Positions 5,521 to 33,679 of a stretch of 64,000 bases of DNA are shown here, piece by piece (the stretch's first letter is position 1; each line of letters begins with the position of its first letter). Where the stretch lies: NCBI GenBank assembly GCA_021014325.1, contig CM037461.1, forward strand, positions 9,391,501 through 9,455,500, written 5' to 3'. Origin of the DNA: Plazaster borealis. Lineage: Eukaryota > Echinodermata > Asteroidea > Forcipulatida > Labidiasteridae. The notes under the pieces were generated by a model that was given only the letters and a program-made list of their open reading frames with translations, had not been told where the DNA came from and made no database searches. A program made the position numbers and the translations under genes.

Positions 5521-7690
5521 CACTGTAAAACCGCTGAACGCATGACACGTTTATAATCTAAACACTTTCATGTCGGATTTTGTCGATAAACACATGACGC
5601 GTTTTTAATCTAAACACATGATAACAAAACTAAGAATGACGCGTTTATCATTTAAACACCGAGTGTTTAAGCAATGCAAAACGTTTAACAAAGTGGTGTG
5701 GGTCGTATAATATATCTCTTATAAACACAATGTGTTTAGTTACTACACGTGATAAACACATGACACGTTTTCAAACTAAACACATAATAGTACAATACAA
5801 ATGGTGTGTTTATCATTTAAACACAATGTGTTTAGTTTTACAAAAGATAAACACATGTTTTTTAAAACTAAACATGTAATAATGCAATACAAATGGCGCG
5901 TTTATTGTCTAAACACAATGTGTTTATTTTTATACACGTGATAAACACATGCGTTTTTAAACTAAACGTATGATTAATATAATACAAATTGTGCGTTTAT
6001 CATTTAAACACAATGTGTTTAGTTTTACAAAAGATAAACACATGCTTTTTAAAACTAAACATGTAATAATGCAATACAAATGGCGCGTTTATCGTCTAAA
6101 CACAATGTGTTTAGTTTTATACACACGTGATAAACACATGCGTTTTAAAACTAAACGTATGATAATATAATACAAATTGTGCGTTTATCATCTAAACACA
6201 ATGTGTTTAGTTACACACAAGATAAACACTTGCGTTTTTAAACTAAACTTGTAATAATGCAATACAAATGGCGCGTTTATCGTCTAAACACAATGTGTTT
6301 AGTTTTATACACACGTGATAAACACATGCGTTTTAAAACTAAACGTATGATAATATAATACAAATGGTGCGTTTATCATCTAAACACAATGTGTTTAGTT
6401 ACACACAAGATAAACACTTGCGTTTTTAAACTAAACATATAACTTAGTAAAAACGTGGTGCGTTTATCGTCTAAACACCATGTGTGTAGTTTATACACGT
6501 GTTAAACACATGCCGTTTTAAACTACACATAATAATAAAATATGGTGCGTTCTTGAACACAATGTGTTTAGTTTTATACGTGCGTTTTTAAACTAAACAT
6601 ATCATAACAGAATACAAACTTGGTGCGTTTACCAAACACAGTGTGTTTAGTTTATTCACCATGATAAACACATGCGTTTTTAAACTAAACATATAATTAT
6701 AATACATTACAAATGGCGCGTTTATCTTCTAAACACAATGTGTTAAGTTTACACTCTAAAAAGCGTGTTCAGCAATTAAACATTAGTAACCTGTTTCCAT
6801 GTCAAATTCCTAAACACTACACTAATAAACACAATACGTTTAATCTTATACACATGAAAACACGTGATACGTTTAAAAACTAAACACATAGTAGAATAAT
6901 ACAAACGGCGCGTTTACAAGTATGTTTAGTTATACACGTGTTTTTAAATAAACACATGTTAATAAAAGAAAAATGGAGCGTGTTTTATCAAACACAATGT
7001 GTTTCAATGAAACACATGATAAACACGTGCGGTTTTAAAACAAACACATAAAATGAAAGACAGCGTTTATGATCTAATCACAATGTGTTACATTTATACA
7101 CTTGTTAAACACATGTGTTTTTAAAATAAACACATGATGAAAAAAGACAATGGTGCGTTTATGATCTGAACACGTGTTTCATTTATGATAAACACGTGCA
7201 TTTTTAAAAGAAACATAATAAGAAAGGACAACTGGTGCGTTTATAATCTAAACACTGTTTCATTTAAAACACGTGCGTTTTCAAAACATACATGATGATA
7301 AAAGAAAATGGTGCGGTTATGATCATGGGGAAACACAACTTGTTTCATTTATACACATGATAAACAGTGCGTTTTTAAAAGAAACACATAGTAGTGATGC
7401 TATACGCTGCGCTGTACGATCTTTGGTTTGATGGTAAACGTATCATATAATGGTTACCAACATAAACACAAGGCCCCACACACACCGCTATCGCCCACAG
7501 TCCTCTAGGTAACATGCCAGAATCGACGATCCGCCTTACTTTTAAACTTCAGTGCATTGCTTTTACACTTGGTTTTTAGATAGTGATAAACACCAAATTA
7601 TGGTATTTTATGTTCAGTTTGAAAAACGCATGTTTATAATTTATGCCTAAACACAATGTGTTTAGTTGATAAACGCACCATTTGTACTTT
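5521..7690. repeat. Left subterminal repeat array of EnSpm-A
   Basis: About twenty diverged copies of a ~93-95 bp monomer occur here. They pair into ~187 bp dimers between about 5880 and 6430. Each monomer contains GCGTTTATCATCTAAACAC, the palindrome TAAACACAATGTGTTTA, a spacer, and AAACACATGCGTTTTTAAAC. Copies become more diverged away from the 5' end of the element. Subterminal repeats of this kind are the binding sites for element-encoded proteins in plant En/Spm; that role here is inference. Confidence 0.85.
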
Positions 7691-8865
7691 TAGTTCAAAA
7701 AATGCATTGTGTGTTCAGATGATAAACGCGCGCACCGTCTCACGACAGCATCATCGGAGACCTCATACTGAACACTGAGTGGCATGGTGGAAACGTTACA
7801 CTTATAAATTTGATGTTTTCGTATAAGAAACTGGAAACTATAAGTCGCTGGTTCAAGTCCCGCTCCAGTCAATTTTTCTTTGTTTACCCAAAAATGTTTA
7901 ATATATAATTACGGTCTAGTAGGCATAGTACAGTTCTATGGACCTTGAAAGTCAAACTGATACTTCCGCGGAAAGTTGAAGGTTCCTAGTGTATTTGCAA
8001 CGTTACTGCGTTAAAATGTCCTAAATGTCGTAACCGTGTTTATAAAAAAAATGCTAAACATAATCGATAAAAGTTAAGGAACGACCGTATATAGGGCCTA
8101 CTCCCGCCAAAAAGTATCAATATATGTATGTATAAATTAACTGCACGCGCTAGGTCTCGTGTGATTGGTTGGAACTTTACAGCGCGCAGAAGGCGACGTG
8201 CAATGTCTGCATCCGCTATACTTTAACTATAGCATTTGTTGCATGCAAATTAATGATGATACGGATGTGTCGTTGTTTTTTGTCACACACACACCCCATC
8301 CAGTCAACGGCGCAGTGAGAGTCAGCTCCTCCTCCATCTTTTTATTTGAAGATTAAAAGGTAGGCCTTCTGTACAGCTCTGTCATCTCAATAATTGTCCT
8401 AATCGAATAATATTTATCCAATCACAAAAGTTGCTTTTATATTGCAGATATTTTCAGAACTCATTTTATGTTATTTGTTGGGGATAGGCCCTAGTTAATA
8501 GTTTGAGTTTTATATTTTATAGCACAAAGCCCAGACCATGTACGTTACAGTACAATTCGCGTACGTAGGCCTAACGTTAGGGCCAGGCTTATGGTGCAGC
8601 ATAGGCCTACTCACTGTATAAATCAACGTTCTGTTGTGTTGGTCTTAACAGATAGATACAGTACAGGGGCTCGGATTATTTTTCTTAATATGTTGTAGGG
8701 CCTAACCTTAGCTGTTCTATGACTGTATGATATGATGATGAGTAACTTTAATGTTATGACATAGGCCTAGTAATGGGATTGCCTGCATGCATTAAGCCTA
8801 TTCCTAGCATCCGAAGAGTGTTGTTCCTGGCGTGTTTTTGTGTTTTATTCTGTAAACTTATTTAT
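7691..8865 (+). promoter_or_regulatory. 5' region of EnSpm-A transposase with candidate non-coding first exon
   Basis: No coding frame is supported. A plausible donor, AAAAG|GTAGGC, lies at 8359/8360 after the CTCCTCCATC stretch and could end a 5' untranslated exon leading to the transposase. A pol III B-box-like GGTTCAAGTCC at about 7850 is isolated and may be a tRNA-derived remnant. Confidence 0.3.
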
Positions 8866-11349
8866 ATGATGGACACTGATGATGATAAGTTCAAATGCTC
8901 GTTATGTTGCTTCTGTAGTCATTCGTACGATAGATTTACCTCACATGTAATTCGTTCGCACCGCCATGACGCAAATTTTTTCGTTTTCTGTAGTTTTGGG
9001 AACTGTTCATATTCAACCAGGAGTTGGGGAGCCTTTAGAGCTCACATTAGTCGGAAACATTCTTTTCAAAATGTGAATGATGCTGACAATGACATTGATA
9101 TGACTAATAATTTTGGTAATGCTGATGATGTTCCTGAGACAGGCCTAGGTGATGGTGAGGTTTTGTCTGAAACACAAATTACCAGAAATTGTAATGCCTC
9201 GTTTAGCCTCGCCTTGGAATGCTCCCATAATATGACACATTCTTCTGTTGATACAGTTATTGCATCCGTTTCCTCTTTGATTGAGCAACACGTCTCTTTG
9301 TTCAAGAGCAAGGTTCATGACAACCTTCTAGAACTAAATATTCCTGGTGGGTTCTTGGATTCAATTTCTGTGGACCATATGCTTGATGCAATAGGCACAC
9401 GGAAAAGAAGAGACAAATTGTATGAACATACCTACTTCTATGTTCCACCAAAAGCAGTCAAACTTGGGGAGAGGTTTGCTACCGTTAAGGGTACTCTACA
9501 GAAGAAAGATGTTGTTGGATATTGCATTCCATTCGCAAAAAGTTTGACAAACTTAGTACAACTGCCAGATGTGTGGAAGTGCACTAATAACCCACGTGAT
9601 TCTTCAGACTATATGTGCGATATTTCTGATGGTGAATACATTAGATCAGACCCCTTATTCACAAGAAACCCCCATGCACTTCAGGTCATTCTAAACACAG
9701 ATGACATTGAAATAGTTAACCCGATTGGGCATCACACGAAGAAACATAAACTGACTATGTTTTATTACACATTGTCAAATATCCCACCTGAGTATAGGTC
9801 ACAGCTACACGCTATCCAACTTTTAGGGGTTGCCAGAAGTAAGGATGTCAGGAAGTATGGACCTGGTGTTTTATTGCAAGACTTCATAAGTTGCATAAAT
9901 AAACTTGGTTCTGGCGGTCTTCAGGTTGAAATCAATGGTGAAATCATAAGTCTTGAAGGCAAACTTGTTGTTGTACCCTGTGATACACCAGCAGCACAGT
10001 GGCTTGGGGGCTTTAAGGAGGGTGTGTCATTTGCATTACATGGTTGCAGGTGTTGTCAGGCTTCTCAGTCTGATATGAAACGAATGTTTACGGAACAAGA
10101 TTTCAACATGCGAGAGGAAATGGAGCACAGAAGGAGATGCAACTCTCTTGACAGCTTGTCTACAGTTGCAAAGACATACTGGAGTAAACGATGGGGTATA
10201 AATTCAACAAGCTGTCTCCAGAATATCTCTGATTTCAATATCTGTAACGGCTTAGTGCAAGATCCCATGCATTTATTTCTTGAAGGCTTGATACCACATG
10301 AGCTGAAATACATGCTCTATGATTATATCGTGGTTTCAAAGTATTTTACTTTGAAGTGGCTAAATGCAAGGATAGCCTCCTTTCCATATTCCTACCTTCA
10401 TCGAGGAGCCAAGCCAGAAATACTAGATATGGCTCATATAGTTGGAGAAGGAAAACTGAAAGAAACTTCTGCTGCAACTATGACCCTCGTATGTACTTTG
10501 CCTTACATTGTAGGTCAGAAGGTACCCAAAGGAGAAGCTAAATGGCAAAATTTTTTGAGGCTCGTTCAAATTTTGCTCATATCAACTAGTCCTTGTTGCA
10601 ACCAATTGACAGCTTCTTTGCTTTCTCAGCTCATATATGAACATCACAGTTCCTTTACTGCTCTCTATCCAAAGGGGAATATTACCCCTAAGATGCATTA
10701 TTGCATCCATCTCCCAAGACAAATGATGAATTATGGCTCGTTAAGAAACCACTGGTGTATGCGCTTTGAGGCAAAACATGGGTACTTCAAAACTAAACAA
10801 TGGCGATGTTTCAAAAACCTTCCACTGAGCATCTGCATTAAGCATCAGAAGTATATGTGCTACAAGCAGTTGGGTTCACAGGGCCATAAGACAGAAACAT
10901 TTATGTATTCTGGTGACACTGTGCGTGAAGGAAAGTCTGTTAACTTAAACGATGAGTACCCAGAACTTGTTGGTAGTATTGCTGCCTCTATAGGTGTTGA
11001 CACTCAAGGTGAGAACGGTCTTCAAGCTTACAAGACGTCGGGTCTAACCATCCATGGGCACGAGTACAGACCAGGCTGCTGTTTGGTTCTGAACTATAAA
11101 GATGACTTGCAACAGTTTGGAATTTTGGAGGCCATTGTAATCATCAACGATGAAAAAGTTTTCATTGTTGAGTGCATGCACACTGAGTACTTTGATTTTC
11201 ATGTTTTGTCTTACATATTGGAGTCAAAACACGAATATGTGGGTGTTCGTTTTTCACAGCTATTTTCAAAGTGGCCACTAAGTGTGTATAACTATGCAGG
11301 GAAGAAATGTGTTATCAATAAATATTCACACACATGTGAGTTATTTTAA
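8866..11349 (+). CDS. EnSpm/CACTA-type transposase with two N-terminal C2H2 fingers (copy A)
   Basis: This is the catalytic protein expected to cut out and reinsert EnSpm-A. It is an uninterrupted frame of 827 aa from the methionine pair at 8866/8869. An upstream in-frame ATG at 8773 would add a hydrophobic stretch absent from the homologue, so the later start is preferred. Residues about 11-33 and 45-70 form two C2H2-like fingers (CxxC...HxxxxH type), probably for DNA binding. The catalytic core shows NTDDIEIVNPIG (D279/D280), PCDTPAAQWLGGFKEG, a CxxC pair (CRCC), DPMHLFLEGL (D466, H469) and MRFEAKH (E635). These are the candidate D, D and E of an RNase H-fold transposase, with the D-x2-H signature typical of CMC enzymes. 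The residue assignment is inference from motif order. It is co-linear with the copy B protein along its whole length. No stop or frameshift is present. Confidence 0.85.
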   Translation: MMDTDDDKFKCSLCCFCSHSYDRFTSHVIRSHRHDANFFVFCSFGNCSYSTRSWGAFRAHISRKHSFQNVNDADNDIDMTNNFGNADDVPETGLGDGEVLSETQITRNCNASFSLALECSHNMTHSSVDTVIASVSSLIEQHVSLFKSKVHDNLLELNIPGGFLDSISVDHMLDAIGTRKRRDKLYEHTYFYVPPKAVKLGERFATVKGTLQKKDVVGYCIPFAKSLTNLVQLPDVWKCTNNPRDSSDYMCDISDGEYIRSDPLFTRNPHALQVILNTDDIEIVNPIGHHTKKHKLTMFYYTLSNIPPEYRSQLHAIQLLGVARSKDVRKYGPGVLLQDFISCINKLGSGGLQVEINGEIISLEGKLVVVPCDTPAAQWLGGFKEGVSFALHGCRCCQASQSDMKRMFTEQDFNMREEMEHRRRCNSLDSLSTVAKTYWSKRWGINSTSCLQNISDFNICNGLVQDPMHLFLEGLIPHELKYMLYDYIVVSKYFTLKWLNARIASFPYSYLHRGAKPEILDMAHIVGEGKLKETSAATMTLVCTLPYIVGQKVPKGEAKWQNFLRLVQILLISTSPCCNQLTASLLSQLIYEHHSSFTALYPKGNITPKMHYCIHLPRQMMNYGSLRNHWCMRFEAKHGYFKTKQWRCFKNLPLSICIKHQKYMCYKQLGSQGHKTETFMYSGDTVREGKSVNLNDEYPELVGSIAASIGVDTQGENGLQAYKTSGLTIHGHEYRPGCCLVLNYKDDLQQFGILEAIVIINDEKVFIVECMHTEYFDFHVLSYILESKHEYVGVRFSQLFSKWPLSVYNYAGKKCVINKYSHTCELF

Positions 11350-11984
11350 ACCAAAAACAAGGGTCCTAAAGGGGTGTTTCTAATTGATAATTGATAATTG
11401 TCCCAGCGGTTACACTTTTAGTAATTGCTCCATAAGTTTTGGACCATATAAAAGCATACCTGATGGGAAGCACTGGGGAGCTGCTGATAGTATAAAACAT
11501 TGCCAGAAACAATTTCCTTGAAAGTTAAGAGAAAAGGGTAACTTTCTAACACAAAAATCAAAATGGTGAAAGTATTACTGCCATAACAGTCAACTTCAAA
11601 CAATGTGTTCACATGGTCAAAAATTTGCATGGTTTTTCACTATTATCTCGTGACTCGGACAACAATTTGAGCTCACATTTTCACGGGTGAGCTTTTTCAT
11701 GTATACATTGAATCACACAAAGTAAGAATGCTGCACCATTAGCTTTATCGATCCTATATCTTACCTTTAAATGTTTAATTTATTTAATAACTTAGGTCAT
11801 GCACCGCCTTTGATGCCATTTGGAGAGTTTATGTAAACTTGTGGGGTTTATTAAATGTGAGTTCTGGAAAACATCTGCAATATAAAAAATTTCCAAATTC
11901 CAATGCAGTTTACTTTTTTCAAAAAGTCATCAAACATCCAAATTAATTGAGAACTTGTTTACTGTCCAAGGTTGATTGTTCAGT
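11350..11984. other. Intergenic spacer in EnSpm-A with decayed MITE
   Basis: Positions about 11400-11720 weakly resemble the AGGCACTGGACAC repeat family of 40738-41070 (shared TGATAGTATAAAACATTG, ACACAAAGTAAGAAT). This is probably an old degenerate copy. No gene is supported. Confidence 0.4.
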
Positions 11985-14900
11985 ATGCCAGTATATAAAA
12001 TTTGGAGCTCTGACAGAGAACTGCGCAAGAGTGTTGTAGCCACCAGCATTCAAGAGATGATTGAAAAGGGTATGTACTCTCGTTACCTGTATGTCATCTT
12101 CAGTTTGTCTTATACAATACACTTCACAGTATTGAAATATTTGAGTTGACTTATTAGAAGGACATTATCTCATGCAAACATGTGTTTTACTATAAGGGGA
12201 ACAAATGAGTAGGAACAAGGTCTTAAACGGCTGTCAGACCGCGCAGGGTGATAGAGGATCGAACCGCCAGGCATTTTCTTTATCGCCCTGCAAGGTTTTA
12301 AACAGCCGTTTAAGACTTGAGTCACTTCTCCATTATTCCCATTTACCTTTACAGTCAAAACACATCAAAACTTTTGGGTCCAAAAGTAAAACATGCAAAC
12401 ATTGTTAATTTTCAACAGTTTCATTCAACAAAACACCCCCGCATCTATGTAAAGGTAAGGCCCTTTAGTAAAGAACTCCTTATAAGGAGATTGGCTTGCG
12501 CGTTGGCATACTGCGTGATATGAACCGATGCTCCTCTACCAATAGGAATGAATAAACTGTCTTATAAACACATGTGCTAGCTGGCATGTCACGCTCATGT
12601 TTAAACACTTTTGGCCATGTTTTAAAACACACCCATGCGACATACTCTCGACCGATCAGATTAGATAGGTATTTATGAATATTCTTTAAACTTCCTCATG
12701 TTATCAACTCAAAGAATTTTATTTTAAACCATGCCCATTTTTCAGCAATCAACTTGTAAATGCATGTTCTTGGTAAATTTTGATTTGCCCGACTAAAACA
12801 AATTATGCGATTGTCATTATGGAGGTTTTCAAATGCTATTTCTCAATTTGGACACATGTTGAAAGATGGAAACACGTTCTTACTTGTATTTTGTGCATGT
12901 CGTCCATATAGGTAGAGTTAACTTTGACCTTGAACATGAGTTAGACTCGTATCGACTTGTGACTGAAGATGATGGCACTGAAATCGAAGACGATCCGGTC
13001 TTGCAGGAGATGGGAAGTGGAACAATTTTCATGCTACTTAAAGATGGAGAAAGCTGGAAAGCTGCCATATTACCTGTAAACAAGACACCAGACCAAGCAG
13101 TGGACTGTGTAACTCCTCTGACCCCGCAGTCACAGGGTCCACCCGAAGCTCCAATCAGTCACAGTCCCAGTCAACGAGTAACCGAGTCTTCATCCCTACC
13201 TGTATTCAGCCCTCGGGTTTTGGAGCACCTCAGGTCAGGCAAGGAGTGTATGGTGTGGAGAGATCTGATAAATGAGGCAGCCAACTACTACATCAGCAAA
13301 CATCCACAACTGAGTAGTACTTCTGAGTACTATAGCATTGGTCGTAAAATGTTCTGCAGCTACCCGTCCATACAGAGGGAAGGAGAGCATGAATGGGTAG
13401 GAATCAAGTTATCTAAATTATTGAGAATCAGTGAAAGACCATGGCTACTGTTTTCATCACAACCGATATTATTTTTCGTGGCAACTATCATGATTTTGTT
13501 TGGTGTTTTTATTTCAATTTGATCCAGTCCTTTTTCACGAAGTGCCTTTCCCAGCGAATAAGACATATTCGATGGACAGATAAGAAGAGGACTCCAACCG
13601 CGAACAAAAGTCACGGATCTGACAATGGTGCATCTGCTACGAAGAAGCCTCGACCATCAGCCCGTATATCCTGCACCTCAGCTGATGGCTCTTCAGATGT
13701 AACAGAAGAACAGTATGAAAAACATCTCACTGAGATCCAAGGCGAATGGGCAAAGGGGGACAAGAGAAATGACGTTCATCTGAATCTTCTGCTGTCAGAA
13801 TGCTTCAAGTCCAACCAGACGTGGATTAAAAGGCTTCCAGACTCTAAGATAAAGCCAATTTTGGAAAAGATCCCATGTTATGAAGATGGGCTGATGGTAA
13901 ATATGATTTCATTATAAAGGTTCAAGGACTAAGTGCTCGTGGCATAATAATGATGTGGTCCTTTGCTATAACCCTACAGCAGTGTTCTAAATGCTAGTTA
14001 AGATAATTAAGGTAAACATTTTCTTGAACTAACTAGTCCAACTGTCTATTAAATGTTCCAGGCTACCTGGTTAAGAGCAAGCAGTAGTAGCACTGACTGT
14101 CACTATCACTATCTATTAGTACAGTATATGGATGAAAATGCTCATACTGCATAGCACCATATGGCCTAAAAGTATTGTTGTATACTTGAGCTATTGAGAT
14201 GGTTGTATATACTTTGTGCACCTATATCGCCATTTACATGTGGGAGGTGTCTGACTTAAAGCTGAAAGACAATGATGAGGTTTTTATTTATTTTTATTTC
14301 GTTCCCCTGAAATATTATTTTGAGGGAGCGAAATATTACTTTGAGGAAATGAAAAAAAAAAGAAAAAAAACTGTCTCTTTACGGGCTCTTTAATTTTAAG
14401 ATGTCTACCAGTGAAAACATTTATTTCCTCAAAAAACCTTTACAGTTTTACAGCTCATTTAAATCATGAAGGTTAGAAAAAATGTTGCTACCTTCACGTT
14501 TGATTCACTGCATGGGTGCATCATGTTTTTTCTGATTTTACTACATTTTTATGAACAGATTACTGGTGAGTTCCAGAGGATACTTGGAGATATGCAGTTT
14601 TCTACACTTAAAGACAACACCAAGAACTTCATGAATGCTGTAGAGGATATCTTGCATTTGCCATCAACAGAGGTAAACATATTGTGTTAGTGTTAGTTTT
14701 TCCTCTCACGATGGTGGCTGATTCATGTGAAATTTACCAAAGTCAACTGGTGGGGTAATTATTACAGGCAGATCTTTAGGGGTGTAAGAATTCAGCTTTT
14801 CGGCTGATTTCAGTTTAATTTTGTTTTGATGTAGGATGTAGGATGTAGTGGCCGAGCGGTTAAGAGCATCGAATTCAAGTTCTGGTGGTTAGTCATCAGG

Positions 14901-15170
14901 GTGTGGGTTCGAATCCCGGCCATGGCACTTGTGTCCTTGAGCAAGACACTTAACTATAATTGCTTCTCTTCACCCAGGGGTGTAAATGGGTACCTGCGAG
15001 GGTAGAGGTTGATAGTGTGTTTGAAAAAGCCTTCGGAGCGCCACGGTTGCCCAGGGCTGTATACTCCCCAGGGAGCTGAGAAAGGTTAAAGGAATGTTAT
15101 TGGCCCAATGACCAGGGCACTAATGTTAAGCGCATTGAGACGTTTATTGTAAAATGCGCTATATAAGAAC

Positions 15171-15202
<32 letters not shown>

Positions 15203-17073: not shown

Positions 17074-17537
17074 TAGTGAGTCAAAAAGAAAGTTGTAAAA
17101 TAATACTCATTATTTGACTGACAAAGGATCCTTATCAGTTGAAAGCCTATGGAAATTAACAGAATAATTTTTAAAAAATAGAGCAAAAAACCCAACCAGT
17201 TAAGGCATTTGCAACAATAACATTTACCAACATTTTACAGGAATTTATTTCCATTTCTTAAGGGGCAAGACCACTTTGTCCCTCATTCTATTTCCCTCAG
17301 GAAAACAGAACACTCCAGGCCTATGATTTCTTTGATTTTTTCCAGATTTCAGGAATTTAAAATCGCCGAGCAAAAACCTTTTCTTGAAAAACAGCTTTAT
17401 ACATCAGGATTGTTTACAACCTGGAACTTGTTCTCCCTTTTGAAATCTCCCTTTTAAATGTTAACAATTCTGATGTAGTTGTGTGCATTTCTGGTAATGC
17501 ACACAGTCCTTAAAAACTTCTATCAAACTTTACTCCT

Positions 17538-17730
17538 GGGCCCAATTTCATAGAGCTGCTTAAGCAGAAAATATTGCTTAACAGTTTTCTGCTAAGCAGA
17601 AATGAGCAGGATACCAGTCACAAATTGTACATGTGACATGGTCCTTTGGCTGGTAACCTTATTCTGGTAAGCACAATTTTGTTGTGCTTAGCTACTTTTT
17701 GTGCTCAAGCAGCTCTATGAAATTGGGCCC
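17538..17730. mobile_element. Palindromic MITE, GGGCCCAATTTCATAG family (copy 1)
   Basis: The element starts GGGCCCAATTTCATAGAGC and ends with the reverse complement GCTCTATGAAATTGGGCCC. Most of its 193 bp folds into one long stem, including GCTTAAGCAG / TCAAGCAGC and GGTAACC motifs. A near-identical copy lies at 54009-54205, and diverged relatives lie at about 30186-30436 and 50838-50955. Confidence 0.88.
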
Positions 17731-22407: not shown

Positions 22408-22775
22408 CACTGTAAAAACAAGTGTTTAGGTTTTAAACACATAAATAAACACCCATCTGTGACACTTTTAAAATACCTAACGCCGTTTATTATGTGTACA
22501 CGTTTAAATTATAATCATATTCGGTGTTTAAAATCAACACACCGACGGAGTTTAAAATAAAAACAGAACAGCGTGTTTATCTTGTACACACGTCAAGTGT
22601 TTAAAATTTAAATACCAGCAATGTTTAAACAATAAACACGTATTAAAAAAGTAAACACGTCAATCCGTTCAAATAATAAACACAATAACACGTTTATTGC
22701 CTGTGACACTTTTAAAACGTCTAACGCCATTTTTTATTATTTCAAGTGTTTAAATTCTCAACATGTGTTTAATTA
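22408..22775. repeat. 3' subterminal repeats of EnSpm-B
   Basis: There are diverged copies of a short unit containing AAACACG, TGTTTAAA and CCTAACGCCGTTTATT-like words. These are the equivalent of the right array of EnSpm-A but much shorter and without a clear 305 bp period. Confidence 0.65.
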
Positions 22776-22986
22776 TAACATCAAAATTCAGTTCCTCTTC
22801 TTTAGTATAGGCCCTATACTCTCTGCCTAATATACTGGCAGCAAAAGTGTGCTGAAATTAACTAGTATAAACCAGTGCCAATTATTTAACTTAAAAAAAA
22901 TTCTTTTTAAAAAATCCTTTCTTTTTCTTATAGGGCCTACTTCAAATAATCACTAAATCTCTGCCTTTCTGACAAAAATGTTTTAA

Positions 22987-23367
22987 AGGGAGGTTACATC
23001 ATTGCAGAAATAGAAAACAAAATACTTCTAAGTTACTGCAAAATAACTTACTTGACTGAGAGTACTTTATTACCAAGCATCCAGTGAACTCGTTTCGCCA
23101 GGTGTTATTTCATTTTATTTTAAAGAAAAGTTGCAATTTCTATAGGGATTTTGAATCTATGATCGGCCGACCATCGTGTTTATGTGCATTTATAATATGA
23201 ATGTGCACAAAATGCTTGATAAAATAGAAGCCGTTATTCGCTGTTCTCTTGAAAACGTAAAGACTGATTTTGATGAAATTTTCACAGATTAGTTTTATGA
23301 TATGTATTTTAAAAACTAGATGATTGAAGGGATTAATTCTTCCAAAAACCAATGATGTAACCTCCCT
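22987..23367. mobile_element. MITE with TTAA duplication (381 bp)
   Basis: The ends are AGGGAGGTTACATCATTG at 22987 and its reverse complement CAATGATGTAACCTCCCT ending at 23367. They are flanked by TTAA at 22983-22986 and 23368-23371. A TTAA target fits piggyBac- or Kolobok-mobilised non-autonomous elements. No coding capacity. Confidence 0.82.
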
Positions 23368-24351
23368 TTAAAGGGTAACCATACGGCGTAAAAATGTGAA
23401 CATCATGCATTCTGCATGCTTTGAAAGCTAAAGAAATTATCAATTGCATATATAGGCCTATTTATAGAAATGTTTGAGTTTAAACATTCTTAATATCCTT
23501 CTAATAACAAGCTAAACAAATTGTCAATTGCATTTGCCTTTTATAATGTGTGAGTTTAAAAAATTTCAATTGCGTATTTATATAAAATTTGAATAAAATA
23601 ATGCAATGTTGGTTTGCCACGGTATGACCAAACATTTTAAACATCACCAAAGTTAAATGGAACAAACAGTTTTATTCTTTTTTAGTATTTCTGAGAAATC
23701 ACAAAACTTCACAAAATCTCTGCCTAAATACTAACAAACATCTTTTTAGAGTAACCAGTGCTAAAATTGAAAAAATAAATAGCACTATATACGAATTTTC
23801 ACTCAAAAATGATTTTTTTAAAAATTGTTTTTTGTTTTTTTCTTAATATCCTTCTATAACTAAAACTCTGCCCTACTGACAAAAATCGTTATGGAGTGTA
23901 TTTTTGCAATGATTTTAAAACAGTATGCACTATTAAGGACTACAAAACAGTCCCGAACTTTAAAGCCCCTTTTCAGCATTTTCCTTTTTTTTGGACATGC
24001 CGAATTTTCGAACTTCAAAAAGCCACATCTTGTCAATGAAATGTCCGATTCAAATTCAATAAACAGCATTGTAAGGATAATTTTGTTCTCTTCCATAATA
24101 GCCTGAAACCTAAAGTTCGACCTCTGCCCAGTTTTGTCTCATTTGCCAGAACGCCTCACATATTAGTTTCAGTTCCTTTTTGGGGGGAGGGGAGGGGGGT
24201 AATCTTATCGTGACACTATGTGAAAATGTCATTTTGTTAAACTCCTGATAAACAACTGTGAAACTTTTATCCATAACCTAATGTTTAATTTTTCAGGAAA
24301 CTATTTAAAACGAATTTAGACCGAATTGTGACAAGATGATGTTTGACTTAT

Positions 24352-27300
24352 TTAAGTACTTGCCAAGGCTTGAAATTTTGAGCAGAATTTACTTAACCTG
24401 CTTGACATTTGTCCAGTGTATTTGTCTCCAACAATGAACTGTTGGAGAAAGCCTAATCCCTGGGAGAAAATCTTTGGGTAATCCAAATCAAACGTATAAT
24501 AAACACCAAGTAGAAGAATGACGCAATCTACCGCAGTCTTGGGGTTAGAGACCACTCTAATGGTGTCCCCACAAACAACACATTGCTGAACTTCGTTGTT
24601 ATGTACAAAAATTACAAGGCGGGGCGAGTCCAGGGGTTTCGTCATTGTTAATGTATCAGTTTCAGCAGCATCCTGTTGGGAAAATACAATTTAGAACAAG
24701 GTAAAAACTAACTGCATTAACATCAACACTAAAACTTGCTTCCTTGTCTCCTCTCCACACATCTCTGGGCCCTGAGAGAGAACAGTGCTAATGCACTGAT
24801 CAGGCTTTTAGGATGGCGTTGATAAACCTCGGAATACTCCATATAGTTTAGTTGGCTTATGTGCATACTGGATGTCTTTCTCTTGGTTTACCATTATGTT
24901 TCATTTGAACAGGTATACAGGGGCACAAGAATACTTTGTTTTCCAATGGGCTTCTGGCATTTTCTCAATATACATGTATAACTGTACAAATAACTTTTCC
25001 CATCCTTTACAGTTAGGTGAATACTATACAGGTTTAAAATAAGTATCGTCCAGGAATAATTACCTCATGTACTGTAACAAAGCTCCTGGACTTGGTGCCT
25101 TTCCCGCGGTCAAACTTTGTGTTGATTTCAATAAATGCCATCACATCAAGCATCTGCAGAGGGCCCTTAAATAGTTTCGCAAAACAAATAACAACAAAAC
25201 TATTAGTTTACCTTACATTGGAATAAATGGATGTCCCCTCAATTAGATTTAAAGGATGATGGACACTCTGGCTTATCTTTTTGCTGATTAACAGTGATGT
25301 TTAACAGTTTATAATTAATAAACAATGATTCAGAAGAAAACAATTATTTTGTACCTTCCTGTGTATTTTTAATTATTATTTTTTCTTAAAAAAATAATAG
25401 TCTTCAGAAACGCCCACTTGCTGACATTGCTAGACTCCTCCACCGAAGTCACATGCATTACATAATATATTCATGAGCCTTTTTTAATAGAAAGAACACA
25501 TAATGACATCCATTTTGTGAACTAAGCCGTTAAACCGTCACTGAACAATTGTCCTTTAGAATAGCGCATGAATATAATGAAACGATGAAGTCGGTGTTGT
25601 GATCTAGCATAATCACAAAGTGTAGACGTTCCCAACGACTATTATTTTTTAAGAAAATAGATCACTTTAAAATACACAGGAACACACAACATAATTTTTT
25701 TCTTATGAATCGTTGTTTATTAATTATAAACTGTTGAACAACACACAGTCATGCAACTGCAATTTGTGAGCAGGAAAGTGACAGACACAGCAAGACTTTG
25801 TACTGTGTTTTTCTATTTTCAATGCCACAGCTGAAAAACCAAAAACCAGGAAATCAGCTGAGCTGCTGAAACCTTGCATGCCTGAACACATGGAATGGCC
25901 ACTATACTATGGTCATCATCCTTTTAAAAAACAAGAGTCTAGATTGCAGAGAAAGCAGGCTTACATGATGACTAATAAACTTTGATTATGGAAGCCTGAA
26001 TATACACCTTTGGTATGACACTTTGAAGAGGTTTGCACAGACAAATTTAGAGGTTTTCAGTCTGTTGACCCCTTGCAGTAACATCACATGCCATTTACCT
26101 CCCAAAATGTTTATCATAGGTGATGACGTCTTGTGCATTTGGTCAATATTGTACTGCAGAAATCAATTTAACTCAGAATGTACTCAAACATTTCACTTAC
26201 CTTTCGACATTGTGTCATCTTGTCAACTGATGACATAAGTGTGTCAGCTCTGGCACGTAGTTGCTCCATGGTCTTGTTTGTCACCATGTAGAATTCCATC
26301 ATGACCTTACTTGCAATATTAAAAACAAACAATTATTAGTTGTAAAAACAAACAGAATTACATGGACAGAGTTTATCTAAAGTTGATCTAGCATCCCTTG
26401 GTTTCTCTGCAGGCCATGGAAGTCATAATTTGTTCAAAATGTTTCTTCAAAATTTAAGACAATATTGAGGGTGCTGGTGAATGTAAAACATCACAAAACA
26501 TTAAATAGATGAAATTTTGCATCGGGGATAATGAATATGATGCAAAAATTACATCTATTTAATTGTTCGCAGTACCCACTGCTATAGGATTCGAACTGGC
26601 CTCTCTACCCCGGGCGCACTCGGTGGTCTAGAGGTTAAGACATCTGCTCTAGTATGCGGGAGGTGGTGGGTTCGAATCCCACCCGAGTCAGTTAGCCTGT
26701 GTTATTTTTCACAGGACTCGGGAAAGCACCGAGTATACGGTGCTATCACACATCGGTGTAGGGTAAACCAAATAATCACAAAACATGCAAGCGCTGATTG
26801 TTGAAGTGGGATGATCAAATGTGTTCATGATATGTCTCGTGAAAACTAAGCAACGAGTGCTGAACTGTGCATTTAGAGTATTTAATTGAATACTGATTGG
26901 CCTGGAAATTGAAACTTTATCATGAAATGATATCATAGAAACAAGATGTTTTAACAATATCTGGAGAGCTTAACTGGGATAGTAAAAGAACAATCTTAAA
27001 GAACAATCTTAAAGAAAACAAACAAAAACTTACAAATTCGCCCAGTTCAAAGCATGGGTACTTGGTTATGATGGGCAGTAGTTCTCCACTTGTGATTGTT
27101 GTCATCCACCTCCTCCTCTGATTGAAACTCTCTTTAAGCAGAAGCTTGATGTGAGCCGCGTTGGGATGCTCTTTATCCATTTCGCTCTGGATGGTTTCGA
27201 TGTGCTTCTCTGAATCATCGTCGGATGATTGTCCGCACGGAGAATGGGCTGGTGACGATGACTTAGAAAAATCACACCTCGGTGGCGGTTTTACAGATGC

Positions 27301-29874
27301 ACTGCCAAGATCATCGCTTTTACGCTTAAGAGACCACCTGAAGTTTCGAATTTTCTGGCTTAGGGATCTGTTAAAATAAGACTGAAAAACCAAGTGAACA
27401 GTCTGTTCTGTTAAAAAGTCATTTCCGACTTTTAAGACATTTTACAGTGTCCATCAAATTATATTTTATGAAGTGATGTGTCTTACAAATATCCCTGCTT
27501 CTGTATCAATCAAACAAGGTTGCAGTGGTTGGTGAAAATTTACTGGTTGATATTTCACAAATTCCATTGCTATATGGCCTGACAAATGAGGGCAGTCAGT
27601 TTTAAAATGGCATAAAGGTGTGCAAAAAACAGAACCGTAAAACTTCCCTATAAAAGCAATGGTTGATTCAATAGGTTTACTCATTAATATCATTGACCAA
27701 CAATGAGACAACTTAAAGAGTGATACATTATTGGTCATCTTTGCAAATGGTAAGATTTCAGATTGAAACCATTCAAATCTTTTGTTTATCATTACTGGCT
27801 GTATCATACCTTTAACCATGGAAAGATTTGTATGCGCTAGCGTCTAATAGTGATGTTGCAATTTCGCTTGGGATGCGGCACACGGTCTCATGAATAAGCA
27901 AATTTGCATTGGGAAACGTTCAATTGACCTGTCAAAACATCCTCAAAATTTGCAATGAAAAGGTTATAACAGTGGTGGCAACATAAGTATACATTTGTGA
28001 ATTGTGTTTTTAAATTTTACAATGTCCATTTTATAGGCTCTGTAAATCTATAAATATATGGATGTTCGACTTCTAACTCGGTTCATCACTTGTTAATGCC
28101 TTCCTAATTATTTCACATTGACTTACCCATGGCTCATTTCCTTCGTGTTTTATGGATGCTGGATATTTGGTATACATTTTATGACCAATAGACTTGTAGT
28201 CATCTGCAGAACCAATATTTGGATACTTGGCCATGAAGAAATGCGCACTTTCTTCGATAACTTTACTCCACACTGCTTTGCCTTGGCCAGATTCAAGCTT
28301 GTTGCTTACAAATGGGCTGAAGACAGGAAGGCTGATGTCGTCACATCGGGACCTTTTAGCTGAAAAGGAGATTTTTCAGAGATTTAATTTTACAATTGTT
28401 TATTTCTAAAGAATCATATGGCCAGTACTATGTTTCAACAAATTTAGTCTGATGTTATTCTTTGGTAATTGAAAAACCTAATAATTTCTAACGTTAAGTC
28501 TGACTCCACAATGATTAAAAAATCAAGTCCAAGTCTTACAAATTATTACTGTAGTCAGACGCCGAGTCACAACGTGATATAAGTCTAAGTCATGTCTGAG
28601 GCCAATTACACAGGTGTGCATCAGTCAGTGTGTGTGACATTTGAACTTTTTCATGCATAACGAGAATAATATAATCTAATTATATTAATTTGGTTTACCC
28701 TACACCGATGTGTGATAGCACCGTATACTCGGTGCTTTCCCGAGTCCTGTGAAAAATAACACAGGCTAACTGACTCGGGTGGGATTCGAACCCACCACCT
28801 CCCGCATACTAGAGCAGATGTCTTAACCTCTAGACCACCGAGTGCGCCCGGGGTAGAGAGGCCAGTTCGAATCCTATAGCAGTGGGTACTGCGAACAATT
28901 AAATAGATGTAATTTTGCCCTACACTGATGCAAAATTACATCTATTTAATTGTTCGCAGTACCCACTGTTATTTTTCACAGGACTCGGGAAAGCACCGAG
29001 TACATGTATACGGTGCTATCACACATCGGTGTAGGGTAAACCAAATTAATATTCATTATCCCCGATGCAAAATTACATCTATATAATCTAAGTACTTACA
29101 AGACCAGCTGATCGGAGATTTGTCAAGTGATGAAGTTAACGCACTGCTTTCAGAACGAGACGTAATAATCTGGCAGTCCCCCTCATTGAGTTTGCCAGAA
29201 TCAAATTGTTGTGATGCCACTGAAGTCCATTCCTCATCACTGCTCAGGAGAATCAGCGTATGTGACTGGACGGCCATAAGTACCTGATCATCATCTATCC
29301 TGGTACCATCCTCCTCAAGAACAACACTGCACGCCTGTATGTTCAGTTTAACTCCTCCTAAAAACACACCCAAAACAGATGGAAATTAAATTATGAATAT
29401 CCCAACTCTATACCATGAAAAAAAAATTTTTTTTTAGTGTCAATCAGATGGTTTAGCTGTGTATTCTCTAAATGTAAAACTCCTTTTGTCTGCCATACCA
29501 CTCTTACAAAGAGCCGTAATTATGGCATGCAACTCTTTTTATAGTGAAATATGGTATTGTCCACTTGAATCATAGTGAAGTTTGCTAATACTTCACACTC
29601 AAAAAGAGTGATCCACAGCGAGTTTCTCTCTCAAAAGTCAAACTGACACCACTACATGTAGGGCGAGAGAATGAAATTTTCACTCTTTTACATTAGGAGA
29701 GTAGTAATTATAACTTTGACATGAACAGCAAGTTGGTCAACTGCATTTGTTTATACAGTAATCCGAAAGGGAAATGTCAATTAAAATACCTTTCTCGATG
29801 AGCTCATCCATAGAGTTACAGACAACCATACTCTTTGCTTGTCTCTTGGAATCCCATACTTTGTAAGCAGGCAT
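24352..29874 (-). CDS. CIDE-N domain / SAMD3-like protein, second gene of EnSpm-B
   Basis: Seven exons join in frame with GT-AG borders: 29874-29790, 29357-29100, 28359-28127, 27381-27034, 26305-26201, 25153-25064 and 24672-24352. Together they encode 479 aa. Residues 1-75 are a CIDE-N domain: start MPAYKVWDSKRQAKSMVV, MDELIEKG, VVLEEDGTRIDDD, LILLSSDEEW. There follow SLPVFSP, VWSKVIEESAHFFMAKYP, DYKSIGHKMYTKYPASI, LSQKIRNFRW plus a basic patch, and the C-terminal LLGVYYTFDLDYPKIFSQ block. It is co-linear with the gene in EnSpm-A. Here exons 2 and 3 are separated by an intron that copy A lacks. Exon 1 of 85 nt is the same length in both copies. It lies about 0.6 kb downstream of the transposase. 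The function is unknown; conservation of the open frame through seven exons argues for selection on the element. Confidence 0.83.
25303..25735. mobile_element. 433 bp MITE in an intron of the CIDE-N gene
   Basis: The ends are AACAGTTTATAATTAATAAA at 25303 and its reverse complement ending CTGTT at 25735. The inner parts also pair over at least 100 bp (AATTATTATTTTTTCTTAAA / TTTAAGAAAATAG region). There is no coding sequence. The target duplication was not determined. Confidence 0.75.
26530..26775 (+). mobile_element. tRNA-like SINE/MITE unit (copy 1)
   Basis: A tRNA-like segment at 26618-26688 has a near-complete acceptor stem (ACTCGG / CCGAGT), an A box GGTCTAGAGGTTAAGA and a B box GGTTCGAATCC. 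It is flanked by AATTGTTCGCAGTACCCACTG on the left and TTTTTCACAGGACTCGGGAA...CATCGGTGTAGGGTAAACC on the right. The anticodon arm pairs only with G-T wobble and an odd loop, so it is not called as a functional tRNA. A near-identical copy lies inverted at 28690-28919. Confidence 0.72.
28683..29066. repeat. Inverted pair of tRNA-like units, one lacking the tRNA segment
   Basis: Copy 2 (minus, about 28690-28919) contains the full tRNA-like segment (28773-28843). Immediately beside it, copy 3 (plus, about 28928-29045) has the same flanks, but the tRNA part is missing between CACTG and TTATT. The two form an inverted repeat of about 80 bp per arm (ATTAATTTGGTTTACCCTAC at 28684, its complement near 29050). 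It lies in the intron of EnSpm-B's CIDE-N gene that copy A does not have. Confidence 0.78.
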
Positions 29875-30185
29875 TGTTTCGCTTTTGAGTTATGACCTGT
29901 GTGTGCAGACAATACGGTTACTTAAACTTTTATGCCCCTAGCCTCTGTATGGCGGAAATTTGTCAAGATGGCGGCATTTTATGCTGCAGTAATTTAATGG
30001 AAAATATTTTTCACCTCCTAGCCGGATAATCCCATGAAAATAAAACAGTAAATGGGCCGATCACAAGAATTTTTTCGTGTTTGTTAAATATTTGTCATTT
30101 AGCCTGCATTATCCGCCATCTTCACAAATTTCCACCAAAACGCAGTAATTTTTCAGAAATTCATGACAGTGCAGCATTAGTCTGG

Positions 30186-30436
30186 AAACTGGGCTCAATT
30201 TCATGGCGCTGCTTTCCACAAGCGAATAATTGGCACTAACGGTACCAGCAGAAAATTCTGTGCTTACGTGATCCTATATATTTCATGGGTTAGCGCGTAA
30301 CTGAGGATTTCTCGCTTACTCGGCAAGGGTTGAAATTCGGCACTGTAAGTGTTGAAATTGTTGAAGTGTTGAAACACAGTAAGCGGGGAATGGTGCCCGT
30401 ATAGCGCAGAATTCTGCAGCACCATAAAAATGGGCC
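30186..30436. repeat. Diverged GGGCCCAATTTCATAG-type hairpin
   Basis: The left end reads GGGCTCAATTTCATGGCGCTGC, shared in diverged form with the intact hairpin MITEs at 17538 and 54009. The right end reads GCAGCACCATAAAAATGGGCCC. The interior is largely self-complementary in short blocks (GCAGAAAATTCTG / CAGAATTCTGC). It lies between the CIDE-N gene and the transposase of EnSpm-B. Confidence 0.55.
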
Positions 30437-30461
30437 CGGCTATGTTGACCTTGAACTTCAT

Positions 30462-32900
30462 TCAAAGATGAGAGTATTGATTAATCACTGCAGTCTGGCC
30501 TGAATATAGGTGAAAGCTGAGCGGCCATTTGGAACTGAGGTTCTTGGAAGCAACTACTGTACACCTGCCTGACCTGGACAAAATAAAACAAAGTCCTTGT
30601 TCCTCGAAGCGATCAACACTCATGTTTTCAACAACGAAATACTTGTCATGGTTACTAATTAGCATTTTCATAATCTTTCCAAATTTTGGAACCTCGTCAT
30701 CGTCAAAACCTAGCCTTAAACAGCATCCCGTTCGAAATCTGTGACCATGAATTGATACACTATCTGTCAAGTATACAAATGTTGCTGGATCCCTGAAGTT
30801 ATCAGAGCCGCTTTCAGCACAAAGCTGATCCACTAATTGAGGAAACTTGTCATGCAACAATTCTTCGGATCCTTCGTCTACTGTATCACCTTCGTACAGA
30901 AAATTGTTCTGACTTGACTGCATGTGACACATAAGCAACTGATGCTTACGACAAACACTAAGTGGAAGATTCTTGAAATTTTTCCACTTTCTTGATTTGG
31001 TGTTTGTGTGTTTCGCCTCGAATCGCATACACCAGTGAAACCGACTTGGGCCATACTTTAAGATCTGAGAAGGTAGGTGGACACAGTAGTGCATCTTTGG
31101 CGTGAACGATGCACGTGGATATTCCTGTTGAAAGACACAATGGTGTGTGTAGATCATTTGCTGCAACTGCCCTACTGTATTCCGGTCGGCACATGGACTG
31201 AGACATAGTAGCATTACCTTAACCAAACAAAGGAAGTTTAACCATTTAACATTACCTTGTGGAATACAAGGCCCAATGATGAAGGGCAAGATAACAGAAA
31301 GAGTATGCATCGAAGCTGCTGTCTGCTTGATACGCTGGTCACCAAGCAAATGGCCTTTATCGATGGGAACAACTTTTGCAGACTCCTCTAGAGAAGTGTA
31401 AGGAAAATGTGCTAGTTTTCCATTGAGCCATTTCAGGGTAAAATACCTCTGGACAACAATGAAGTCATACAACATCAACTTCATCTCATATGGAACCAGA
31501 CCTTCCAGGAATACGTGCATTGGGTCATGAACCAAAGCAGAGCACAGAGGAAAATGAGGAACATCAAGCAAACAACTAGAATTATTAATACCCCACATTT
31601 TGCTCCAGTAGGTATAGGCAGCAGGAGTAAGATCACCCATTAAGTTGCATCGCTCCCGATGTACTTCTTCCCCTCTTATTGAGATTTCATCTTGGTGTAG
31701 CTTCCTTTTCATGTCTTCTGTTGAGGTGTCACATGTTCTGCATGCTTTAAAGGCAAACCCAACACCCTCTTTGAAGCCACCCAACCATTGTGCTGCAGGC
31801 GTGTCACAAGGGCAAATTGCCAGAAATCCTTCAAATAATTGCTGTCTACCATTTATTTGTAAATGTACACCACCATTTCCAAGACGACTCACAGCAGCCA
31901 CAAAATCTTGTAACAACTTCTTACAACCAAAACGGCCAAGTCTTATATCTTGTGTTCTGGCAACAGCAAGCAATTGAATGCTGGATAGACGGGAACGATA
32001 CTCAGGTGGGAGATTTCCCAAAACCCAGTAGAACATTGACAATTTGTGTTTCTTAACATGAACTCCGATTGGGTTGACAATTTCAATGTCGTCACAATTA
32101 AGGATGAATGTCAGTGCATTAGGGTTTCTTTTTATCAGCTCATGGTTTCGTATGGCCTCACCGTCACAGATATCGAACATCATGTCAGTGGTACTTTCAT
32201 GTGAATTCTCTATACACCTTAGAACCTCTGGCAAATTCAAAAATTGCTGCAAGTTTTGCAGAAAGGGAATAAAGTATCCAACTCTTTTAACACGTTTGAT
32301 AAGTCCCTTGGTGTGAACTGTTTTGTGACCCAAAGTAACACCCACTGGTTTGATAAGACCAAAAGTCTCTTCATACACCTTCACGCGTCTGTGAGAGCTT
32401 TGATAATTGTAGAACACATTTTCAAGGGTTCTATCCAGAACCTCTATGGGATTGTTATCTTCATGACCATTCCGACCACCAGGACCAAGCAACTCATTTT
32501 GAGCTGCGGAGATTACATCTTTAATAAGAATGGAAGTTTCCGCAAGTACTGATGCCAAAGCTTTATCAGTTAGTCCATGGCGAGCCTGCAACGACAATGA
32601 ATAGGCACCAATTCTTCTTTCAAGCGCGTATGTTGCATTATCTTCATTATTCAAGACCTCATCTGGGCCAGAGTCATCAGAACTTTCTGTGTCTTCATTT
32701 CTGTCTACGTTTAAATTTATGTTGCTATGCTTACGCCAAACATGAGTTTTAAATGCTGCCCAACTTTTGGATGAGTAATTGCAATGACCTCTTGAACAAG
32801 TGACTATGAAATGAGGATCATTCTTATGTAAATGCACTGTATGTTTTTCAAAAGATTTGTATGCATTTGATCTGTAGTAACACATACTACACTGCCACAT
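30462..32900 (-). CDS. EnSpm/CACTA-type transposase with two N-terminal C2H2 fingers (copy B)
   Basis: This is the catalytic protein of EnSpm-B: 812 aa from ATG at 32900, which lies just inside an exon whose acceptor (TTTTCAAG|GTCTGC) is at 32938-32939. An ATG at 32963 lies upstream of that acceptor and is unlikely to be used. Two C2H2-like fingers follow the start (C4/C7 with MWQCSMCYY; second CSRGHCNYSS...HVWRKH). The core has NCDDIEIVNPIG (D270/D271), PCDTPAAQWLGGFKEG, CRTC, HDPMHVFLEGL (D459, H462) and MRFEAKH (E628), in the same order and spacing as copy A. No stop or frameshift is present over 2.4 kb. The enzyme class is inferred from motifs and the element's CACTG ends. Together with the downstream CIDE-N gene it forms a conserved two-gene module. 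Confidence 0.85.
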   Translation of the reverse strand: MWQCSMCYYRSNAYKSFEKHTVHLHKNDPHFIVTCSRGHCNYSSKSWAAFKTHVWRKHSNINLNVDRNEDTESSDDSGPDEVLNNEDNATYALERRIGAYSLSLQARHGLTDKALASVLAETSILIKDVISAAQNELLGPGGRNGHEDNNPIEVLDRTLENVFYNYQSSHRRVKVYEETFGLIKPVGVTLGHKTVHTKGLIKRVKRVGYFIPFLQNLQQFLNLPEVLRCIENSHESTTDMMFDICDGEAIRNHELIKRNPNALTFILNCDDIEIVNPIGVHVKKHKLSMFYWVLGNLPPEYRSRLSSIQLLAVARTQDIRLGRFGCKKLLQDFVAAVSRLGNGGVHLQINGRQQLFEGFLAICPCDTPAAQWLGGFKEGVGFAFKACRTCDTSTEDMKRKLHQDEISIRGEEVHRERCNLMGDLTPAAYTYWSKMWGINNSSCLLDVPHFPLCSALVHDPMHVFLEGLVPYEMKLMLYDFIVVQRYFTLKWLNGKLAHFPYTSLEESAKVVPIDKGHLLGDQRIKQTAASMHTLSVILPFIIGPCIPQGNVKWLNFLCLVKVMLLCLSPCADRNTVGQLQQMIYTHHCVFQQEYPRASFTPKMHYCVHLPSQILKYGPSRFHWCMRFEAKHTNTKSRKWKNFKNLPLSVCRKHQLLMCHMQSSQNNFLYEGDTVDEGSEELLHDKFPQLVDQLCAESGSDNFRDPATFVYLTDSVSIHGHRFRTGCCLRLGFDDDEVPKFGKIMKMLISNHDKYFVVENMSVDRFEEQGLCFILSRSGRCTVVASKNLSSKWPLSFHLYSGQTAVINQYSHL

Positions 32901-32940
32901 GGTTAACTCTAAAGCACATACCCCTTTGTATGCAGACCTT

Positions 32941-33679
32941 GAAAATAAATGAAAAAGAAACATGTGTTAAGGGAAAGTTCATCTTGAATAAAACATTAAC
33001 TGATCTAAACAATCAAAACATCAACTGCCTTTGACTTAAAGGGATTTTAATAGGATTAGATTTCATTAGTTTTGGGGGAAAAAATGTATTTCAATCATCT
33101 ACTTTTCAAAATATACATCATAAAAATAACCTGTGAAAAAATCATCAAAACATATCATTCGCGTTTTCGAGAAAACAGCACGTAACATTTCACTTTCATC
33201 AGCTTTTTGTGCATATTCATATTGTGTTTTCCAATTTGATTATTGCAATCAAAATCAGCTGTTGCATTTCCGGTGGTCTTCAGATACAGTTTTCTCAAAT
33301 ATTATCGCAATATTGCATAGGGTGATTGGTATAGTGTGTCACCTTTACAAGTTCAGACCCGCTCTATCGAAATGAGGAATGTCTCGGGAATTTGACATTC
33401 TTTTTTTTTTATATGAGCGTAACAAGCAAATGTTAACATCTTAAATGATTCAAAAATTATGATCAAGCGACCTACATGGCCAAAATAATGAGGAATTTTC
33501 GACGACCTTGACGCCAAGATTTACGACCCGTATGAAAATAATTGATGTGAGAAAAATTAATTTTAAAAACCCTGCGTCTCCCACACTCATAAATTTTTGT
33601 GTTTGTTTAAAAAAAAAAAAAAAACACGATTTCTAACCCTCCGTAGTCAGAAAAACATTAGGCCAAAAATTGACAAATG
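32941..33679. other. Non-coding region upstream of the EnSpm-B transposase
   Basis: Part of the presumed 5' intron. It contains the 33 bp segment GACCCGCTCTATCGAAATGA... at about 33358, which recurs inverted at about 45059-45091, and an A-run near 33608. No gene was seen. Confidence 0.5.

Follow-up and report, generated by a model that had tools for sequence, protein, structure and literature searches.

A second gene encoding a CIDE-N protein within EnSpm/CACTA-type transposons of the sea star Plazaster borealis, a candidate TNPA-like partner of the transposase

The window analysed here is a stretch of 64,000 nucleotides of the sea star Plazaster borealis (C7:9391501-9455500, contig CM037461.1), in a genome assembly of 560.6 Mb and 717 contigs. 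Two transposons, A and B, were delimited in it. Each carries within its own ends a transposase gene (gene 1) and, downstream on the same strand, a spliced second gene (gene 2) whose predicted product opens with a CIDE-N domain. Gene 2 lies inside the element, has moved with it and is constrained as a protein. The explanation that we favour is that A and B represent animal EnSpm/CACTA transposons with two genes and that gene 2 may be the animal counterpart of plant TNPA, with CIDE-N serving as a head-to-tail assembly module. For this explanation as a whole, helper function included, a probability of about 0.5 seems appropriate.

Ends, mobility and transposases of the elements

The elements, their transposases and their terminal repeats are as follows (positions are those of the window unless a contig is given; TSD, target-site duplication; ORF, open reading frame).

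5521..20459, + strand: element A, 14,939 bp, CACTGTAAAA termini at both ends, TSD TA/TA
22408..45995, - strand: element B, 23,588 bp including a nested insertion, CACTGTAAAA ends, TSD TA/TA
C7:12509154-12524601: B', 15,448 bp, without the nested insert, CACTGTAAAA ends, TSD AA/AA
8866..11349, + strand: transposase A, two C2H2 fingers, D/D/E with C(2)C and H(3)H, start codon placed by comparison with the Acanthaster transposase P0009
30462..32900, - strand: transposase B, start codon placed by comparison, possibly a further upstream exon
5521..7520: left subterminal repeats of A, 47 TAAACAC/GTGTTTA heptamers in 2 kb (33 + 14 per kb)
18521..20459: right subterminal repeats of A, 18 heptamers in the last two bins (1.9 kb), 14 of them in the last bin
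about 36746..44823 (limits to a few bases): DNA transposon nested in B, with YqaJ and DDE_Tnp_4 ORFs, absent from B'

B' is a second copy of B, 3.1 Mb away, and matches it in two blocks that are 99.1% and 99.4% identical. The identity breaks off at CACTG at one end and overruns CACTG by a single base at the other, and the flanks are unrelated. Since the identity stops at the element ends and the flanks differ, both genes have moved together with the element; B and B' are two insertions of one mobile element and not a segmental duplication. An earlier interpretation of this DNA, made without database searches and called here the sequence-only reading, had assigned the CIDE-N gene to the transposon, and its position inside the ends and its joint movement in B and B' bear this out. 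The same reading had taken A and B for two copies of one transposon and had set the right limit of B at 32964, and both points had to be revised. The transposases of A and B are only 46% identical, so the two elements belong to different families (their second proteins share 34-36%), and the true copy of B is B'. Element B extends to 45995 because a DDE_Tnp_4/YqaJ transposon is nested inside it. In the nested transposon a YqaJ-type ORF occupies 38561-39121 and a DDE_Tnp_4 ORF 41831-42421 on the - strand; its terminal inverted repeats start with AGAGGTT, and about 5 bases were duplicated at the insertion point.

In A, B and B' the terminal inverted repeats begin with CACT(A/G), as in EnSpm/CACTA elements. 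A 2-bp TSD borders all three copies, as against 3 bp in a plant element (PMC2613891; this and the other papers cited below are drawn on for the excerpts available). Subterminal repeats, a further feature of EnSpm/CACTA elements, were found near both ends of each copy. Mononucleotide shuffles of the left end of A, where 47 heptamers were counted, gave a mean of 0.5 and a largest count of 6. Each terminal bin of B and B' holds 8-12 heptamers and every non-terminal bin of A, B and B' at most 4; the 25.5 kb of the window outside the elements contain 16.

The claim of an intact C2H2/DDE transposase in each element was upheld, the ORFs being open over 865 (A) and 834 (B) codons from stop to stop, with two C2H2 fingers at the N-terminus of both proteins. 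The two were aligned with 120 listed homologues of the 127 found, 122 sequences in all. In stop-to-stop ORF numbering of A, the conserved columns are D317 (119 of 122), D411, C432 and C435 (122 each), H649 (113), H653 (115) and E673 (114), and the exceptions at these seven columns are gaps apart from a single L. From this pattern D317, D411 and E673 are the putative catalytic residues. D/D/E with C(2)C and H(3-4)H is the pattern of the EnSpm-Mirage-Chapaev-Transib group (PMC12730594), which the residues of the A and B transposases fit. The Pfam search gave no significant label on either transposase. Transposase_21 (PF02992) did not match A or B at E<=1 and is carried by 2 of the 120 listed homologues.

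The second gene, its CIDE-N domain and its constraint

Between the transposase stop and gene 2 lie 635 bp in A and 587 bp in B, and in both elements the two genes share a strand. The exons of the two models are listed below.

11985..12069, + strand: gene 2 of A, exon 1, first part of CIDE-N
12912..13396, + strand: exon 2 of A, remainder of CIDE-N and beginning of the middle domain
13528..13896, + strand: exon 3 of A
14559..14672, + strand: exon 4 of A
15695..15796, + strand: exon 5 of A
16723..17073, + strand: exon 6 of A, conserved C-terminal domain
29790..29874, - strand: gene 2 of B, exon 1, first part of CIDE-N
29100..29357, - strand: exon 2 of B, remainder of CIDE-N
28127..28359, - strand: exon 3 of B, middle domain, 1-base gap in the B' copy
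27034..27381, - strand: exon 4 of B
26201..26305, - strand: exon 5 of B
25064..25165, - strand: exon 6 of B
24352..24672, - strand: exon 7 of B, conserved C-terminal domain

The predicted products comprise 501 amino acids from 6 exons (A) and 483 from 7 exons (B). All junctions of the models are GT/AG and there are no internal stops, in line with the exon numbers and open frames first described. The CIDE-N domain named by the sequence-only reading was recovered by the Pfam profile (PF02017, gathering cut-off 23.5 bits) with 63.8 bits (E 1.5e-17) in second protein A and 60.1 bits (E 2.2e-16) in second protein B, over profile positions 4-76. Five CIDE-N matches at E<=1e-3 were obtained in the whole genome; because exon 2 of A, of B and of B' accounts for three of them, the location of CIDE-N beside the transposase is not due to chance.

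The nearest solved structures of the CIDE-N part are DREP2, CIDE-3 and CIDE-A. In PDB the best relative is DREP2 (4d2k), with E 5.4e-9 in the sequence search and 3.1e-14 in the profile search, ahead of the CAD/ICAD chains. The intron that divides the domain has phase 1 and lies at the identical place in A, in B and at two further loci of the genome described below (T26 and T30). Basic and acidic stretches are retained in seven of seven family CIDE-N sequences aligned with DREP2, as judged by eye on the linear sequence.

The remaining part of the protein, about 400 residues, had no significant match in Pfam or, by sequence profile, in PDB, where one match of the core at E 0.43 was disregarded. 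An NCBIfam search with the database relatives P0002, P0003 and P0005 likewise gave no significant match for the core. The sequence-only reading had proposed that the protein continues as SAMD3-like; a SAM domain was found neither in second proteins A and B (E<=1) nor in P0001-P0006 (E<=10).

Selection was assessed from the proportions of synonymous (pS) and nonsynonymous (pN) differences. The comparison of the two second genes asked for by the sequence-only reading gave pS 0.80 and pN 0.45 and points to constraint. The large exon of T26 and T30 gave pS 0.785 and pN 0.273. Values for the transposases are similar (pS/pN of 0.81/0.38 and 0.77/0.24), and third codon positions are the most divergent. 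In the CIDE-N part of T26 and T30 the ratio of nonsynonymous to synonymous substitution rates (dN/dS) is about 0.13, with dS near saturation. Judged by these patterns, both genes have evolved as proteins and their coding sequence is constrained.

Recurrence in the genome and in other animals

The list of transposase matches in the genome has 56 entries and includes separate pieces of a single copy (scores were computed for 54 of 107 candidates). When a profile of CIDE-N exon 1 was run on the 1.5-kb downstream flanks of 30 transposase loci, five matched: A, B and B' (E about 1e-20), L030 (0.003) and L026 (0.027), the next value being 0.55. Thirteen further loci were extended by 5-8 kb, four chosen on prior hints (T12, T14, T26, T30) and nine as strong or long matches (T09, T10, T11, T15, T18, T19, T20, T21, T23). 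Homology to gene 2 was present in nine of the thirteen, and in five of the nine not chosen on hints.

Just downstream of the transposase, CIDE-N exceeds the cut-off at T26 (C543; 26.4 bits) and at T30 (C7:11.83 Mb; 25.0 bits), with matches that cover profile positions 3-54 only. The transposases at these two loci are 25-26% identical to that of B, and the second gene of T30 has a frameshift. Homology to the core was detected on the transposase strand at T09 and T14 and, with the profile widened by T26 and T30, at T15, T19, T21 and T23. At T12 (L012 with L047 and L048; C7:1230110-1246254) the order is reversed: a CIDE-N half-domain of 14.7 bits, under the cut-off, lies with core and C-terminal homology upstream of the transposase on the same strand. 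As a strict control, a profile was built from A, B and P0001-P0006 only and applied at E<=0.05. It gave 11 matches in 5 of the 13 regions, all 11 on the transposase strand, with T26 failing the threshold; ten dinucleotide shuffles gave 0,0,0,0,1,0,0,0,0,0 matches.

In another group of second genes (the L032 group), the gene lies about 310-550 nt downstream of the transposase match at five of seven places, and its N-terminus differs from CIDE-N and has no Pfam match. By eye, the N-terminus at L032, L033, L017 and L031 looks ubiquitin-like or PB1-like. Two further CIDE-N loci were recorded, a complete single-exon frame of 90.6 bits at L001 (C12:15391080) and a half-domain of 44.9 bits at L037 (C176:21841); the flanks searched at both contain no significant second-gene core.

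Database relatives of the second protein were found in Acanthaster (P0001), Lytechinus (P0002), Patiria (P0003 and P0004) and Littorina (P0005 and P0006). Second protein A is 77% identical to P0001 over 499 residues and 41% identical to P0002 over 506 residues; P0001 has the C-terminal part twice. As both match along about 500 residues, they support the exon structure modelled for A. CIDE-N is above the cut-off in P0001, P0002 and P0005 (70.2 bits in P0005); in P0006 only its first part was seen, at 20.9 bits and under the cut-off, and the Pfam profile did not find it in P0003 and P0004. The Acanthaster transposase P0009 is 79% identical to transposase A, a divergence similar to that of P0001, and the contigs reported for P0009 and P0001 have the same length, 1,640,093 bp. 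With recurrence in the same slot beside transposases as distant as those of T26 and T30, and with relatives in echinoderms and a mollusc, the pairing does not go back to one recent shared ancestor, the outcome that would have undone the sequence-only reading.

Other features of the window and its surroundings were noted. A reverse transcriptase-like ORF, read by eye, lies upstream of A at 1282-2301. A tandem satellite with units of about 191-209 bp occupies 20779-22401, 45940-46795 and 54425-59991, in inverted and direct blocks that flank B and lie beyond it; two of the blocks are complementary to each other at 98% over 735 bp. Another transposon of the nested kind was found at 49255-52464, with a YqaJ ORF (59 bits) on the + strand and DDE_Tnp_4 and HTH_Tnp_4 ORFs on the - strand. 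Contig C7 carries 28 of the 56 listed transposase matches, 27 of them within 8.5-15.2 Mb, perhaps a low-recombination region.

Proposed role of gene 2 and comparison with known systems

Plant CACTA elements depend on two proteins, the transposase TNPD and TNPA, a protein that recognises their subterminal repeats (PMC2613891, PMC1636069), and CIDE domains stack head to tail by oppositely charged faces to form filaments (PMC8647176). On this model, gene 1 of A and B would supply the cutting enzyme, a C2H2/DDE transposase, and gene 2 a helper made up of an N-terminal CIDE-N, a helical middle domain and the conserved C-terminal domain. The helper would bind the dense TAAACAC/GTGTTTA repeats near both ends in a TNPA-like manner, and its CIDE-N domains would stack through their opposite charged faces. 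Stacking could thereby gather many helpers on each end, join the ends, and load or steady the transposase. The other N-termini that replace CIDE-N in some relatives would make it a swappable assembly module on a common core. Like TNPA, gene 2 is encoded within the element together with the transposase; from the likeness to these systems we infer DNA binding, CIDE stacking and a need for gene 2 in transposition. A wider version is offered tentatively, and we consider it less probable than the model itself: animal CACTA elements may have a conserved TNPA-type helper family of their own, with a common core and an interchangeable N-terminal self-assembly module of which CIDE-N is one; the ends would be gathered by CIDE filaments, and cellular genes of CIDE-N or SAMD3-like type would in some cases sit in transposons or stem from them, as might apply to the CIDE-N enrichment in Hydra (PMC7642931).

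Several observations weigh against the helper model. The structure model of the gene 2 protein is poor (mean predicted local distance difference test score 50.8) and no clear match emerged when it was compared with solved structures, so that DNA binding by the gene 2 protein is conjecture; the zinc fingers of the transposase could themselves read the repeats. Gene 2 of B' has the 1-base gap in exon 3, and this copy is therefore probably not self-sufficient. CIDE-N is not universal in the transposon family: it was not detected at T09, T14, T15, T19, T21 and T23 or in the L032 group, where short split exons were possibly missed. No second gene was found at T10, T11, T18 and T20, and for 8 of 12 second-gene clusters, obtained with two queries, no listed transposase lies within 10 kb. 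In Lytechinus the contig of P0002 differs in length from that of P0058, the best transposase listed, which either counts against a pair there or means that the best matches stem from different copies; outside this genome Acanthaster is the one candidate instance of the pairing. As to the claim of a conserved second gene, homology to gene 2 recurs at nine of the thirteen extended loci, four of the thirteen having been chosen on hints, and CIDE-N marks a subset.

The strongest alternative, to which we give a minor share of the probability, is that gene 2 regulates the transposase in the way ICAD acts on CAD, chaperoning or restraining the cutting enzyme until assembly is complete. The CIDE-N domains of the DFF40/DFF45 (CAD/ICAD) pair do control a DNA-cutting enzyme (PMC8647176), and gene 2 with CIDE-N adjoins such an enzyme in A, B, B', T26 and T30. 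However, CAD and ICAD both have CIDE-N, and Pfam finds none in transposase A or B, so contact through another domain would be required; the direct CIDE-CIDE tethering put forward by the sequence-only reading is unlikely for the same reason. The closer relationship to DREP2 than to the CAD/ICAD chains also speaks against such a regulator.

Somewhat less probable is that the core of gene 2, by DNA binding or anti-silencing, is the functional part and that CIDE-N and the other N-termini only tune dosage or location. The core is indeed more widespread than CIDE-N (T09, T14, T15, T19, T21 and T23), and the L032 group has another N-terminus; the low dN/dS of CIDE-N in T26 and T30 argues against a merely tuning role. 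Slightly weaker again is the proposal that gene 2 targets the host, its CIDE-N joining or blocking host DFF40/DFF45-type assemblies and so blunting apoptosis or the DNA fragmentation that follows transposition breaks. CIDE domains pair with each other, and the complete CIDE-N frame on C12, with no second-gene core in the flanks searched, is a possible host partner. Yet host CIDE proteins cannot be the general target, because homology to the core occurs in elements without detectable CIDE-N. It is very improbable that gene 2 was captured from the host and travels as a passenger that plays no part in transposition: host genes do get picked up by DNA transposons and broken copies exist (the B' gap, the T30 frameshift), but gene 2 recurs in the same slot beside distant transposases, is constrained as a protein and has relatives in another phylum.

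The helper model can be set beside several known systems. Like the CIDE-N proteins DFF40/CAD, DFF45/ICAD, CIDE-A/B/C and DREP1-4, gene 2 has an N-terminal CIDE-N above the Pfam cut-off; unlike them, it has no other known domain after CIDE-N and is borne by a transposon. If the model is true, CIDE-N would gain a new role beside an enzyme that cuts DNA, and apparent expansions of the CIDE-N gene family in animal genomes may consist of transposon copies. A two-gene arrangement is also known from RAG1 and RAG2, of which RAG2 is a kelch/PHD protein not known to have CIDE-N. In RAG1-RAG2-type transposons (PMC4411706) the second gene comes from the same transposon, as here, and RAG1 is related to the EnSpm group (PMC12730594). 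Fungal transposons that carry TET/JBP, EnSpm elements included, likewise bear an accessory gene by the transposase (PMC12730594); that accessory is an enzyme common to unrelated transposon lineages, whereas gene 2 encodes a CIDE-N protein and was sought beside this transposase family only. In the available text on the Hydra genome (PMC7642931), CIDE-N is among the enriched domains, listed beside transposase domains and classed as a DNA-binding motif, with no transposon connection drawn. The statement that the pairing of CIDE-N with a CACTA transposase is undescribed agrees with a search of open-access titles and abstract starts, which held no description of it; subscription papers and Repbase were outside its scope.

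The closest parallel is plant En/Spm, which shares with A and B the CACT.. ends, the crowded subterminal repeats and a DDE transposase accompanied by a second encoded protein (TNPD and TNPA; PMC2613891, PMC1636069). In Spm, alternative splicing of a single unit yields both proteins, whereas gene 2 of A and B is modelled as a separate downstream spliced gene; the available excerpts of these plant accounts do not mention CIDE-N. SmTRC1 and related animal CACTA elements have the same kind of animal CACTA transposase, with transposase relatives in sea urchin. For their second products the excerpts report no detectable similarity to products of other animal or fungal elements and make no mention of CIDE-N; in 2006 the authors expected another product of the element to act as a TNPA-like, DNA-binding protein (PMC1636069). 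The second gene described here is bounded by the element ends and turns up in deeply diverged families of this genome. Other animals have relatives of it, and its product bears an assembly domain that can be recognised as such; with these features the missing TNPA-like partner of animal CACTA elements becomes directly testable.

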